Assembly (NCBI RefSeq): GCF_003324165.1
Contig: NW_025407824.1
Span: forward strand, 1,018,834 to 1,082,833
Direction of reading: 5' to 3'
DNA: 64,000 nucleotides
DNA from: Naegleria lovaniensis
Taxonomy: Eukaryota > Heterolobosea > Eutetramitea > Acrasida > Naegleriidae
Made by a program: the position numbers and the translations under genes. Every line of letters begins with the position of its first letter. Position 1 is the stretch's first letter. Below the pieces are notes generated by a model that worked only from the letters and a program-made list of their open reading frames with translations, ran no database searches and had not been told where the DNA came from. Below, piece by piece: positions 1 to 6,361 of this stretch.

Positions 1-3000
1 TAATGGTACCGATGAAAGATACATGCAAAAATTGAATACTGCTTTTGGAACAGGTTATGCATGTTATGAGAAATCGAAATTTGCTGGTCTCATTTTCGAT
101 TTGAAACATTTTGCAGGTAAAGTGACGTATGATGTCGAGGGATGGGTCACTATGAATAAGGACACACTTTTTGAAGATCTTGTTTTGGCCATGAGAAGAT
201 CTCAATCGAATTTAATGCAACAACTTTTCCCTAGAGATGAAAAGGTAGATTCTTTTGGTAAATTGCAAAAAACAACGACCATGCAATTTGCAGAAGATGT
301 TCTCAAATTTGTGGGCAAAATGAAAGGAAAGCATCATCATTTTGTGAAATGTATCAAACCTAATCATGAAAAGAAACCCAATGAATTCTTGGATGAGGTC
401 GTCATGGAACAAGTGAAATATTTGGGAATTACAGAAAATGTTCACATTCGAAACAGTGGTTATTATTTCAAGATGGATTTTGATAAATTTTTAGATCGAT
501 ACAAGATGTGTTCAGATGCTACATGGCCACGTTGGAATGGCTCTCCCAAGGCTGGAGTTAAGAAAATTCTACAAGAAATGAAAATACCAAAGTCCAAGTA
601 TGCTTTAGGTCAAAGTAAGGTATTCTTACAAACTCCAGTTCAATTGTTTGCATTGGATGAAAAGATTGCCTCTCGTAGAATTGAAATGGCTTCTATCATT
701 CAGAGAAATTTTAGAAAGTACAAAGCCAGACAAAAGGTTCTCGCTGAACAACATTTACAAAAGGCCTTGGAAAAGACATTTGGTGAAAAGTGTGACAATT
801 TATTCCAACGTTTGGTGAATCAAATTAACTGGAAGACTGGAGAACGTCAAAGAAAACTTCTCGTCGTTGCACCAAGTGCCATTTATCTGGTAGATCCAAA
901 GACATATACCGTTCTCAAACGTGTGCAGTACAAGACCATTGATAGTTTGAAATGCTCTGCATTGAATGATGAGGTTATTATTATTTCTGCTCCACAAGTT
1001 CACGATTTAATGATCGAAGCAGACAGTAAGAATGAAGTCATGAAGGCCATTCGTGACTCGTACGATTTATTCTTTTCACACATTAATCGTGACAACTCTG
1101 CTCCTTCCAATAATAGCAATTCGTCACAAGATACAGCAGCAAACTCTTCATCTACACCTAGAAAAGATGTTCCAACTGATCCAAATGCTCCTCCATCTAC
1201 TGCCACAGATCCTGCTTCATCGAATGATGATCTCTCAAAGAATGTTGCAGCACTAGCCACCGATGATCACAGCATTAAAACATTGCGTGTAGATATTGGT
1301 GAGGAATTTGTATTCCATCCATTGAAGGCATTGAATAAGAGAGTCAAGTTTGTGAAAAATTTCAATGCCAAATCTGGAACAATGATCGAAGTGACCACTG
1401 AAGGTTTATTGGTCAGTTCAAAACCAAGTGATGACGTCTTTGATGGAATGAAATTGAGAAGAAAGACTTCCTTCCATAAAAAATTCTACGGAGATTATAT
1501 TCACTTGGCCAAATCAGAACTCATGAAAAAGATTTCTGAAGATTTTGGAGATCAAGAAGTGTCATTCAGTGGTGTTGTGACCAAGTATAACAAAAAGTAC
1601 AAGAAACAAGAAAGAATCTTGTTGATCACTGAGAGAGCCATTTACAACATTGATCCAAATGGTTACATTATTCACAGACACATTCCAATGAGAAGATTGA
1701 AAGCAGTGACAGTTTCTCCATATACTGATGGCTTCTTTGTGATTCACACTCCTGATGAATATGACTATGTGTTTGAGAGTAACAAGAAGACTGAAATTTT
1801 GAAAGTTCTTTCAGAAAATTACACCAATGCCACTCGTGCCAAGATGAAATTCTTTGTCAAGAATTCAATCAAACACAGAATGAAGAAGGGTAATGAAAAT
1901 CGATTGGAATTTAAGGAAGTGACTGCCATTCGTGGTAATCATGTCACACCTACCGATTACGGAGCTGAAATTCAAGTCAAAGTTGAAGAAGTGATGAGTA
2001 ATGAATTGGATACAAACGTAGTTCAAGATATTTATCAAGGACAAAAGTTGAGAAGAAAAGATTCTCTCTTGAAATGGTATCTTGGAGATTATTTACACAT
2101 TGCCAACACCAAAGCATTTGAGAAAATTAAGAAGGAATTTGGAGATTGTCAACTCTTGTATAGCGGTTTAGTTCAGAAAATTAACAAACGATATCTCGTT
2201 CAGGACCGTAAATTACTCGTCACTGATCAAGCTGTCTACAATTTGGATAATGACTTGAAAGTATTAAGAAGAATTCCATTTAAAGAAATTTCTGGAATCA
2301 GTGTGAGTACCATGAGAGATGGTTTCTTCATTTTGAAAGTTCCCGATGAATATGATTATCTCTTTTCAAGTCCAGCCAAAACAGAAATCATCAAAGCAAT
2401 TATGGATCAAAAGAAAAAGGTTGAAAATCGATCACTAGAATTACAAGTAGATGACAAACTTGTCTATACCGTTCACAAAGGAAAGGGTGTGAAAACTCTT
2501 GATTTCCAAGATGATTTTTCAGTGAAATCGACTCTTATCATTCCAACCAGTACGGGTGCTCTCATTAAGGTCAACAATGTTGAAGTCGATGAACAACAAC
2601 AAAACGTTCCACAAGAAGCCGAAAAGAATCAACTCGTTTCTGAGGTGAAACAATCCATTGGAGCTGATATTTATAAGGGAAGAAAAGCAAGAAAGAAGGC
2701 ATCCATGATGAGAGAACACATGGGAGATTATTTACCAAATTATTACAACAAACTTGTTCAACAATTATTACAAAAGAATGGAGACACTCAATTACTGTTC
2801 GCTTCAGAAGTGTTGAAAATTAACAAATCACTCAAAACTCAGAAACGTATCATGATTATTACTGATAAGCATATTTACAATATTGATCCACAAGAATTTA
2901 AGGTGAAACGTATTATTGATTTGGATGAAATTGAGGGCGCTTCGATGAGTCCTTTTGCCGACGACAATTTTTGTTTGCATGTTCCAAGTTCATACGATTA

Positions 3001-3613
3001 CTTGTACGATTCAGATAAGAAGACTGAAATTTTGGACGTCTTGTCGAATGCAATCATGAAGAAGGCTCAAAAGAAACTTCCAATTAACATTGCAGATACC
3101 TTCTCATTCTCACCAAGTGGTAATGATGTTGTGAATATTAACTTTGTGGAAGATTCGAATGCGAACGAGACGTTTATTGAACCTCACAACAATAATTTGG
3201 TCGTTCGTGTGAATCACAAAGAACCTGGAGTGGTGTTGGAAGCTGCCTATGTTTATGTGACGAGACATGCCTCAGAAAAGGATAAGGAAAATGTCAAACC
3301 TATTGAAGTCAAGTCGAATCCAATCTTGATCAAACTCAGAAAGAGATGGAAGTACAAATTGGAAATTCGTTTCTACGTCAATGAATATCTTTCACAGTGT
3401 TCATTCCATGAAAAGATTGATACTGTTGGTTCGAGATTGGAATTTGTGTCTCAAGTCTCTGATTTGGAACCTCGTGAAGAACGTTATGTGATTACTTTGC
3501 CTGAACGTGATGTGGTGTACTCGCTACTTTCAAAGACTCGAGTGAAGTGTAAATTAGTGGATCCTATGGGACGAACATTGTTGGCTGTTCGTTTCATTTA
3601 TGATGTGAGATAG
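1..3613 (+). CDS. Class I myosin heavy chain, 3' part, with four TH1 tail repeats and a RhoGDI-like C-terminus
   Basis: The reading frame is open from base 2, so the gene starts left of the window; at least 1196 residues are visible counting from the methionine at 23. Residues 1-215 are the last part of a myosin motor (actin-binding FVKCIKPN segment near 107, converter LGITENV near 134). Residues 217-240 form one IQ-type light-chain site (SIIQRNFRKYKARQ). Four membrane-binding TH1 (myosin tail) modules follow, with cores at about 243-350, 476-600, 675-797 and 885-1015. Each of the last three opens with a basic R/K-R/K-K-x-S patch and a GDY motif, and closes with a Y/H-D-Y-L/V-F/Y strand. A Ser/Asn/Pro-rich linker lies at 355-410. 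Residues about 1068-1196 resemble the RhoGDI beta-sandwich (F-x-VN strand, PREERY turn). Single-headed myosin I normally has one TH1, so this tail is unusual. Likely role: actin-membrane linkage. Confidence 0.92.
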   Translation, partial: NGTDERYMQKLNTAFGTGYACYEKSKFAGLIFDLKHFAGKVTYDVEGWVTMNKDTLFEDLVLAMRRSQSNLMQQLFPRDEKVDSFGKLQKTTTMQFAEDVLKFVGKMKGKHHHFVKCIKPNHEKKPNEFLDEVVMEQVKYLGITENVHIRNSGYYFKMDFDKFLDRYKMCSDATWPRWNGSPKAGVKKILQEMKIPKSKYALGQSKVFLQTPVQLFALDEKIASRRIEMASIIQRNFRKYKARQKVLAEQHLQKALEKTFGEKCDNLFQRLVNQINWKTGERQRKLLVVAPSAIYLVDPKTYTVLKRVQYKTIDSLKCSALNDEVIIISAPQVHDLMIEADSKNEVMKAIRDSYDLFFSHINRDNSAPSNNSNSSQDTAANSSSTPRKDVPTDPNAPPSTATDPASSNDDLSKNVAALATDDHSIKTLRVDIGEEFVFHPLKALNKRVKFVKNFNAKSGTMIEVTTEGLLVSSKPSDDVFDGMKLRRKTSFHKKFYGDYIHLAKSELMKKISEDFGDQEVSFSGVVTKYNKKYKKQERILLITERAIYNIDPNGYIIHRHIPMRRLKAVTVSPYTDGFFVIHTPDEYDYVFESNKKTEILKVLSENYTNATRAKMKFFVKNSIKHRMKKGNENRLEFKEVTAIRGNHVTPTDYGAEIQVKVEEVMSNELDTNVVQDIYQGQKLRRKDSLLKWYLGDYLHIANTKAFEKIKKEFGDCQLLYSGLVQKINKRYLVQDRKLLVTDQAVYNLDNDLKVLRRIPFKEISGISVSTMRDGFFILKVPDEYDYLFSSPAKTEIIKAIMDQKKKVENRSLELQVDDKLVYTVHKGKGVKTLDFQDDFSVKSTLIIPTSTGALIKVNNVEVDEQQQNVPQEAEKNQLVSEVKQSIGADIYKGRKARKKASMMREHMGDYLPNYYNKLVQQLLQKNGDTQLLFASEVLKINKSLKTQKRIMIITDKHIYNIDPQEFKVKRIIDLDEIEGASMSPFADDNFCLHVPSSYDYLYDSDKKTEILDVLSNAIMKKAQKKLPINIADTFSFSPSGNDVVNINFVEDSNANETFIEPHNNNLVVRVNHKEPGVVLEAAYVYVTRHASEKDKENVKPIEVKSNPILIKLRKRWKYKLEIRFYVNEYLSQCSFHEKIDTVGSRLEFVSQVSDLEPREERYVITLPERDVVYSLLSKTRVKCKLVDPMGRTLLAVRFIYDVR

Positions 3614-3779: not shown

Positions 3780-4625
3780 CTACTTGTGACTGGTTAATTT
3801 TCGAATGTGATCTTTCAAAATCTTAATCACTTGTTGAGGATTTGAAAAATCATCTTCATGACTCATAATGTACTCAATACTGAGAGTGCTGTCGTCGTTG
3901 TGACTATTGGCCTCTTCTTTTTGACTATTAGCCTCTTTCTTGCTGATATTAGCCTTTTGCCATCTGACCATATCAATTTCTTCACACAATTCATCTACAT
4001 CTTTTCTTGCTGTGATTATTCGTGTTCTCATCATTTTCAACACTTCATGTTGAGAAATTAATTTTTGTTTCAATCCCTCGTTTTCTTCCATTAACTTGCC
4101 TTGATCCTGTAAGATGGCATCTCTCTTCATCAAGAGAGAATCGTATTCCCTTTGAAGAGAGTTATCAGTGGAGAAACGATCTGCCCATAATGGATCAATG
4201 GATTTGTTGGTACTTTGTGTTGTGGTGGTCGAGGTGTTACTGATATTGGAATATTTCCTCTCCAATTCTGCATGAACTTGCAATTCTTGTTGTTTTTTCC
4301 GTTCTCTCTCTTCCATGTACTTTCGGTCTTCTTCCTCTAAACGCTTTCTTTCTTCTTCTTCTTCTGCCATTCTTCTTGCTAGTTCTCGTTCCATCATTGC
4401 TCGTTCCAATTCTACACATAATTCTTCAATATCGCTATGAGCATTCTGTAGTCGTTCTTGCAACATTTGCAAAGTTTCTGTATGAGATTCTAACGTTTCC
4501 ATCAATTCTGATTTTTCATCTCCGAGCTGTTTAATGTTCCGTTCAAGATTAGCCTTTTGTTGTTGCAATTCATCATACTCGTGCTGTAACTTGAGATCGG
4601 TTTCATGAAAAGGTGGTGGTGTCAT
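3780..4625 (-). CDS. Coiled-coil protein with an internally duplicated module
   Basis: The start is placed at the ATG at 4625 because it sits directly behind an A-tract, as in most genes here. The open frame runs further to a TTG at 4697, but no ATG lies upstream in frame before a stop. The 281-residue product is almost wholly charged heptad-type coiled coil (Glu/Lys/Arg/Gln/Leu). An N-terminal module (LQHEYDELQQQKANLE through the IEELCVELE segment) is repeated after a Ser/Thr linker (LQREYDSLLMKRDAIL through VDELCEEID), so the protein looks like a duplicated helical hairpin. A very acidic-basic stretch (EEEERKRLEEEDRK) lies between the copies. No family was recognised; scaffold or cytoskeletal roles are only guesses. 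It converges with the myosin gene and is divergent from the K+ channel gene, 182 bp away. Confidence 0.7.
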   Translation of the reverse strand: MTPPPFHETDLKLQHEYDELQQQKANLERNIKQLGDEKSELMETLESHTETLQMLQERLQNAHSDIEELCVELERAMMERELARRMAEEEEERKRLEEEDRKYMEERERKKQQELQVHAELERKYSNISNTSTTTTQSTNKSIDPLWADRFSTDNSLQREYDSLLMKRDAILQDQGKLMEENEGLKQKLISQHEVLKMMRTRIITARKDVDELCEEIDMVRWQKANISKKEANSQKEEANSHNDDSTLSIEYIMSHEDDFSNPQQVIKILKDHIRKLTSHK

Positions 4626-4807
4626 TTTTTCAACAGTGAGATTTTGATAATTCTCAATGGGAATCTCTACATGATTTGAGTGCAATTTCCATAGCAAGAC
4701 TGCCAGCGAAAGATCTTGGAGCTATACAGGGATCCTTCTGTGGTTGATCAGTGTCCAATGTTTTTGTTAATTGTTTTGGGTATTTTTGATTTTAATTCTT
4801 AAAAAAA

Positions 4808-6361
4808 ATGAATGAAGTGGTCGTTGATGTCGGAGTAGAAGATGGATCATCATCCCGAAATCCCACGCTCAACAATAATAACAAACTATCAAAAGGTTTT
4901 GGATCGAGTATGAATTTTCCTACGAATACCATTGAAACTGCTGCAGATGATGGCGAACCAACGACAAGTGCTTTTGCACAGATATCATCAAAAAAAGACT
5001 TCACCAAAGAGGAAAAGGTTCTTGATGATACAACACCAGCCCGAGGATCGGTAGATATTGATAGATTTATGGAATCACACTCGAGACTTTTCAGAAGTAG
5101 AAGAACGATAGCCATCATCAATTCCATTCCGAAGAATAGTGCCGACCGGTCGTGGAGGCAAAAAATGTACCTGATTTTGGAACATCCTAGGTCGAGTTAT
5201 GTGGCCATGATTGTTACCATTATTTCTTCGTTAATGACTGTTATCCAAACTGTATGTTTGGTATTGCGTTCATTTCCATTCTTCTTTCAATTCGAGTTTT
5301 TGTGGATATTTATTACTGGTTTCCTCTCAATCTATTTCATGATTGAATACATTTTGCGAATGGTGGCCTATGTGCATACTTGGGGAGATTTTAGACATTT
5401 TGTAACTGGTGGAATGAATATTATTGATTTTATGAGTTGGAGCAGTTTTTGGATTGATTTGATTTTATATGAAGCAGATTTAAGCGACCACTTTTATGCA
5501 CAAACACTAACAGTGTTTAGAATTTTACGTTTACTGAAATTAATCAAATTGACGAGACTGTCAGCAAAATTCCAACTACTTGTTGTTTCTATCAGAAGAT
5601 CCTTTGAATTATTGTTATCGTTAGTAGTGTTAACAGTAATGGGAGCCATTATCAGCTCTACACTTATTTATTATGCTGAACGTGGTTTGTTTGATGCTAA
5701 ATCAGGCACATGGCTTCGACCCGATGGTACTCCATCACCATTCTCGAATATTATGGTCTGTATGTGGTTCTCAATTGTTTCTCTGGCCACCGTTGGATAT
5801 GGTGATATTACGCCAGTCACCGTAACTGGACGAATTATTGCTGTCATGACCATTCTCTCAGGTATTGTGGTCATGGCCTTACCTTCCATGGCTATTGGTG
5901 GTATTTACAGCAAATTATTAGCAGAATTTGATGCAGCTCAAGACGAAACAGAAGAAAAGGAAAAACAAAAAGAAAGTGAAGATATGGGAATTGATCTTGA
6001 TATTGATGAAGCTGAGAATGCACCCAAAGCCATTACAGGCGGTGTGATGGATCCATCTCAATCTATTCCATCGTCATCAAACGAACAAAAATCAACATGG
6101 CTCAGTGTGGATGAATTACTCTTTGGTTCAAGTTCTTCCTCGAATAATGCTTCTGGAATTAGGAACAGTTCATCCTTTGGAGATTTGGGAGATTGGTCCA
6201 ATTTGAAGGATCCAACCATTCGTAAAGATTTACAAAACATTGACGAAGGAATTCTCACTCAACTCATACAGCAACAAGAATTGCTCATGCAAGCATGTGT
6301 GCAACAAATGACAGATATGAAACTTGCCATTGAAGAGATGCAACTCAATCGAATGTTGTAA
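4808..6361 (+). CDS. Voltage-gated potassium channel (Kv-like, six TM)
   Basis: 517 residues; the ATG follows an A8 tract. Membrane segments fit the Kv plan: S1 about 131-153, S2 162-189, S3 203-221, S4 230-251 with spaced basic residues (RILRLLKLIKLTRL), S5 265-289, pore helix 313-327, selectivity filter TVGYGD at 328-333, S6 about 341-365. The first 115 residues are polar and low-complexity with no T1 tetramerisation domain. The C-tail (370-517) is acidic and ends in a Gln/Met-rich helix that could be an assembly coiled coil. The S6 lacks a PxP hinge and has ALPS instead. Role: depolarisation-activated K+ permeation across the plasma or contractile-vacuole membrane; the location is inferred only. 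Confidence 0.9.
   Translation: MNEVVVDVGVEDGSSSRNPTLNNNNKLSKGFGSSMNFPTNTIETAADDGEPTTSAFAQISSKKDFTKEEKVLDDTTPARGSVDIDRFMESHSRLFRSRRTIAIINSIPKNSADRSWRQKMYLILEHPRSSYVAMIVTIISSLMTVIQTVCLVLRSFPFFFQFEFLWIFITGFLSIYFMIEYILRMVAYVHTWGDFRHFVTGGMNIIDFMSWSSFWIDLILYEADLSDHFYAQTLTVFRILRLLKLIKLTRLSAKFQLLVVSIRRSFELLLSLVVLTVMGAIISSTLIYYAERGLFDAKSGTWLRPDGTPSPFSNIMVCMWFSIVSLATVGYGDITPVTVTGRIIAVMTILSGIVVMALPSMAIGGIYSKLLAEFDAAQDETEEKEKQKESEDMGIDLDIDEAENAPKAITGGVMDPSQSIPSSSNEQKSTWLSVDELLFGSSSSSNNASGIRNSSSFGDLGDWSNLKDPTIRKDLQNIDEGILTQLIQQQELLMQACVQQMTDMKLAIEEMQLNRML

Follow-up and report, generated by a model that had tools for sequence, protein, structure and literature searches.

We analysed a stretch of 64,000 nucleotides of the Naegleria lovaniensis genome (contig NW_025407824.1, positions 1,018,834 to 1,082,833; hereafter the window), which opens within a myosin I gene. 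The last domain of this myosin resembles, by computation, the C-terminal domain of RhoGDI (PF02115), and this likeness has strong support from the fold and from profile-profile comparison and weak support from single sequences. We class the protein as a myosin I of new architecture that carries a RhoGDI-like domain, and not as a RhoGDI. Two defining properties of that family, the N-terminal arm and a score at the curated Pfam cut-off, were tested on the 13 myosins that carry the domain (the members), and neither was found.

Fold and sequence likeness to RhoGDI

The initial annotation had proposed a RhoGDI-like domain at the end of a myosin I heavy chain, starting at nucleotide 3224, and had quoted three strands (VVLEAAYVYV, YKLEIRFYVN and PREERYVITLPERDV), all of which are present in the open frame 2-3613 (+). 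The fold and profile comparisons back this assignment. When the domain was modelled alone with AlphaFold2, four of the five models had a predicted local distance difference test score (pLDDT) of 82.4-85.2, and the fifth was clearly weaker (68.1). The predicted fold is a RhoGDI-type immunoglobulin-like beta-sandwich covering RhoGDI residues 65-199, so that the outcome that would have spoken against the proposal, a fold other than a sandwich, did not occur. In the fold ranking, RhoGDI came first, with a lead of over 3 Z units and an E-value about three orders of magnitude better than those of the other folds. The next families, PDE6-delta and UNC119, are binders of lipid tails too, and NPC2, a lipid carrier of related fold, was found further down the lists.

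PDE-delta/UNC119 as the nearest family was rejected, since both rank under RhoGDI in the fold lists. In addition, the PF05351 profile (PDE6-delta/UNC119) gave no match at E <= 10 in any of the 13 members. The end of TH1 was also rejected as the identity of the domain, as TH1 stops just before it both by Pfam and in a two-domain model (TH1 plus the RhoGDI-like domain; predicted template modelling score 0.56, too low to fix the arrangement of the domains). As proposed, the best match was RhoGDI and not the C-terminus of TH1. By Pfam, the last TH1 ends at frame residue 1075 (nucleotide 3226), and the RhoGDI fold match begins at nucleotide 3215 in both models (residue 18 of one, 184 of the other), which places the proposed start correctly to within a few codons.

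When the members were scanned singly against Pfam, Rho_GDI was found in five of the 13 and every other family in at most one. The five Rho_GDI scores were 22.1, 20.3, 18.6, 17.4 and 12.9 bits, with E-values between 1.3e-4 and 0.086; the best of them, like every other member, stays under the curated cut-off of 26.5 bits. The window's own domain gave no Pfam match at E <= 10. No PDB sequence, RhoGDI chains included, was matched at E <= 10, either in a phmmer search with the last 179 residues or with the 13-member profile. NCBIfam returned no match for the domain and one irrelevant match for the whole myosin (E 0.14).

Profile-profile comparison with hhalign aligned the 13 myosin domains to 32 RhoGDIs, picked from 120 listed, with a probability of 85%, an E-value of 6.2e-6 and a score of 40.3; of the RhoGDI and PDE-delta profiles, this comparison covered that of RhoGDI only. 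The maximum of 200 column shuffles was 30.2 (mean 13.8), and the reversed alignment scored 15.8. Sliding 150-residue segments of the same myosins reached 31.1 and 25.5 when overlapping the domain, and no segment elsewhere exceeded 17.3; the partial-domain score of 31.1 is close to the column-shuffle maximum. With a RhoGDI hidden Markov model, all 13 domains scored above each of 2000 composition-shuffled controls, though narrowly so for the weakest member, which reached 12.6 bits against 10.7 for the best shuffle. On the column-shuffle controls and these 2000 shuffles, chance likeness was rejected.

Gene and domain layout

The myosin gene is already running at the start of the window, and the frame 2-3613 (+), open throughout, is a portion of its last long exon. 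The gene, which has introns, starts on the same contig upstream of the window, and its product of 1746 residues is found in the protein database (P0001). This protein has an intact P-loop (GESGAGKTES) and a motor (PF00063) followed by TH1 (PF06017), as in a myosin I. The features of the frame are as follows.

5..628 (+): myosin motor, C-terminal part, the remainder lying upstream of the window; PF00063 positions 453-678 of 679, E 1.2e-47
755..1066 (+): first TH1, partial; PF06017 profile 23-135 of 185, E 3.7e-10
1457..1936 (+): second TH1; PF06017 positions 1-165, E 3.8e-35
2051..2515 (+): third TH1; PF06017 positions 1-165, E 9.1e-33
2690..3226 (+): fourth TH1; PF06017; adjoins the RhoGDI-like domain
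3215..3610 (+): RhoGDI-like immunoglobulin-fold domain; final 132 myosin residues, stop codon 3611-3613

Behind the fourth TH1 there are about 130 residues without a Pfam match of their own. The usual layout of a myosin I is head-IQ-TH1 with one TH1 (main text of PMC3942036). The window frame has four TH1 matches instead of a single-TH1 tail, whereas Myo1c-type myosin I has one, and in the two-domain model the RhoGDI-like domain is placed where the matched part of Myo1c ends. No paper on tandem TH1 domains in a myosin was found in the literature searched.

Downstream, a frame of 305 residues at 3780-4697 (-), with much charged, coiled-coil-like sequence, is convergent with the myosin gene. It is followed by a 517-residue frame at 4808-6361 (+), which by eye resembles a voltage-gated potassium channel (TVGYGD filter).

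Distribution and conservation

When the domain region was searched against about 5.8 billion proteins, 135 candidates were scored, of which 13 had E <= 10; such protein searches require shared 5-residue words, so that distant relatives may escape. All 13 carry a myosin motor and TH1 domains. They include the window's own protein, two from Willaertia magna and those of Naegleria gruberi, Naegleria fowleri and Acrasis kona. Willaertia, Naegleria and Acrasis belong to the Heterolobosea, and the architecture is therefore present in other heteroloboseans as well. Among short proteins, the domain profile gave 10 matches, six of which start with TH1 and one of which has Rho_GDI at E 0.019; these are probably fragments of such myosins rather than stand-alone relatives.

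In the N. lovaniensis genome the domain was found twice at E <= 1, in the window and at C3:57399-57815 (-). The second copy is 73% identical to the window's and ends another long myosin with four TH1 domains. This second myosin (L026, G000:C3:57393-63857, minus strand) has the same tail plan, and its long frame opens with a WW-like stretch; a WW domain is also listed for P0008, the N. fowleri relative. Further TH1 frames with two or three matches each were seen at G000:C10:433909-435558, G000:C9:434308-435201 and G000:C28:310807-311538, those on C9 and C28 having no motor match nearby in the genome search.

The motor tree splits the members into a group of three (P0004, P0005 and P0008, from Willaertia and Naegleria) and a group of 10. 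Over 78 pairs, mean pairwise identity was 72.7% for the domain (minimum 63.3%) and 53.2% for the motor, with 35.6, 49.5, 52.5 and 53.1% for TH1 matches one to four; this comparison covered the domain, the motor and the TH1 matches. When the window protein is set against the three members of the other clade, identity is 44-46% in the motor and 77-79% in the domain. That the domain is better kept than the motor suggests that it has a conserved partner or ligand.

An ordinary RhoGDI gene is present elsewhere in the genome, at G000:C22:264116-264741 (-), and its product, with exons joined, is 97% identical to a N. fowleri protein. The plain task of a guanine nucleotide dissociation inhibitor (GDI) is therefore already taken. 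The available text of the Naegleria pangenome paper gives the number of RhoGDI genes as one (PMC9928731).

The last domain as a candidate lipid receptor

In RhoGDI, the C-terminal domain houses the geranylgeranyl group and the N-terminal arm binds the switch regions (available text of PMC8253491). This regulatory arm is absent from the myosin domain, as judged from the starts of the Pfam matches and from the two-domain model. Three Rho_GDI matches begin at position 56 or 57 of the 193-position profile and end at 190 or 191, two begin at 91 and 94, and in the model TH1 is predicted to stand directly before RhoGDI residue 65, with no helical hairpin between. PDE6-delta (PrBP/delta) and UNC119 have the same general lipid-carrier beta-sandwich, and PDE6-delta, with a fold similar to that of RhoGDI, likewise has no such arm and functions without one (available text of PMC5758567). 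The positions aligned with RhoGDI L170, I177, W192, W194 and L196 are L/F, V, V/I, F and Y in all 13 members. Of these, we take L170, W192, W194 and L196 to be pocket positions of RhoGDI. I177 is discussed as a pocket position in the available text of PMC8253491. Shared with RhoGDI are the predicted fold, strand order, a profile-profile match and hydrophobic pocket-side positions; unlike RhoGDI, the domain is part of a motor protein.

We favour, with somewhat less than even confidence, a myosin I in which four TH1 domains are followed by an armless lipid-binding fold of RhoGDI type that serves as receptor for a lipidated partner. The fold, the hydrophobic pocket-side positions, the missing arm and the separate RhoGDI together argue for such an armless receptor. 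The TH1 domains would anchor the tail to membrane rich in phosphoinositides and, standing in place of the arm, could carry the last domain to the membrane. There this domain may accommodate the lipid tail, prenyl or other, of one conserved partner, with a small GTPase as first candidate. The motor would then be placed or switched at the partner's site, or the partner moved along actin. Such a membrane-delivered lipid receptor would operate more like PDE6-delta than like a GDI and, having no arm, should not block nucleotide exchange. A narrower version, that this heterolobosean myosin I has a built-in prenyl receptor and at the membrane would read phosphoinositides jointly with a prenylated GTPase, with neither an effector domain nor a GDI arm, is conceivable, and we regard it as doubtful.

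Several differences from RhoGDI weigh against a lipid receptor. The domain is just 16-21% identical to RhoGDI in the fold matches, and valine or isoleucine at the position of W192 could shrink or reshape the pocket. We take E163, D184 and D185 to form the acidic mouth of the RhoGDI pocket; with the mouth so defined, it is not kept, as all 13 members have arginine at the position of E163 and, bar one glutamate, non-acidic residues at those of D184 and D185. All 13 domains are basic, with net charges from +5 to +10, whereas the same region is near-neutral in RhoGDIs (-3 to +3 in 31 of the 32, +8 in one). Given the basic domain and the arginine, it is unlikely that a polybasic GTPase tail would be bound in the manner of RhoGDI.

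The loss of the acidic mouth and the basic charge would suit a serious rival, namely that the fold was kept, lipid binding was lost and the pocket closed, leaving a protein-binding module that acts as cargo adaptor or as a lock folding onto the motor or TH1. Charged or polar side chains are found at many of the invariant positions (among them K65, R69, E83, R91, E93, K124, K128, K130, R143 and D147, domain numbering), more than a buried pocket alone needs; however, the pocket-side positions are still hydrophobic in every member, and the folds nearest after RhoGDI also bind lipid tails. We regard this module as a real contender, if a less than probable one. A basic domain directly behind membrane-binding TH1, and carriers such as NPC2 lower in the fold lists, could also fit a binder of membrane lipid (acyl chain, sterol or phospholipid) instead of a lipidated protein, an extra anchor beside the four TH1 domains, which we consider unlikely. 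The low identity, the Pfam scores below cut-off and the absence of a direct PDB sequence match would agree with a generic immunoglobulin-like fold or a TH1 extension with no special relation to RhoGDI. This is very improbable, as TH1 ends just ahead of the domain, the lead of RhoGDI in Z and E-value is large and there is a separate sequence-profile signal with controls.

Myosin I and the RhoGDI-type domain are each known, and their combination is not described in the literature searched, outside which lie supplements and most subscription papers; the initial annotation likewise knew of no such myosin. Neither PMC3942036 nor PMC5583752 contains the letters GDI or RhoGDI in its main text, and the available parts of PMC9928731 and PMC4082629 do not join myosin and RhoGDI. 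According to the main text of PMC3942036, its whole-genome myosin survey was made by Pfamscan with the gathering threshold left at its default. All Rho_GDI matches in the members score under the Pfam cut-off, which illustrates how such fusions go unnoticed.

A lipid-receptor fold kept more strictly than its motor implies a conserved partner, and the fold and its conservation suggest that these myosins may link the motor directly to a lipid-tagged signalling protein. A direct link between a Rho-type GTPase and myosin I would become testable in crawling amoebae. If the prenyl-receptor reading is true, Rho-type signalling would be coupled to actin-based force within one molecule.
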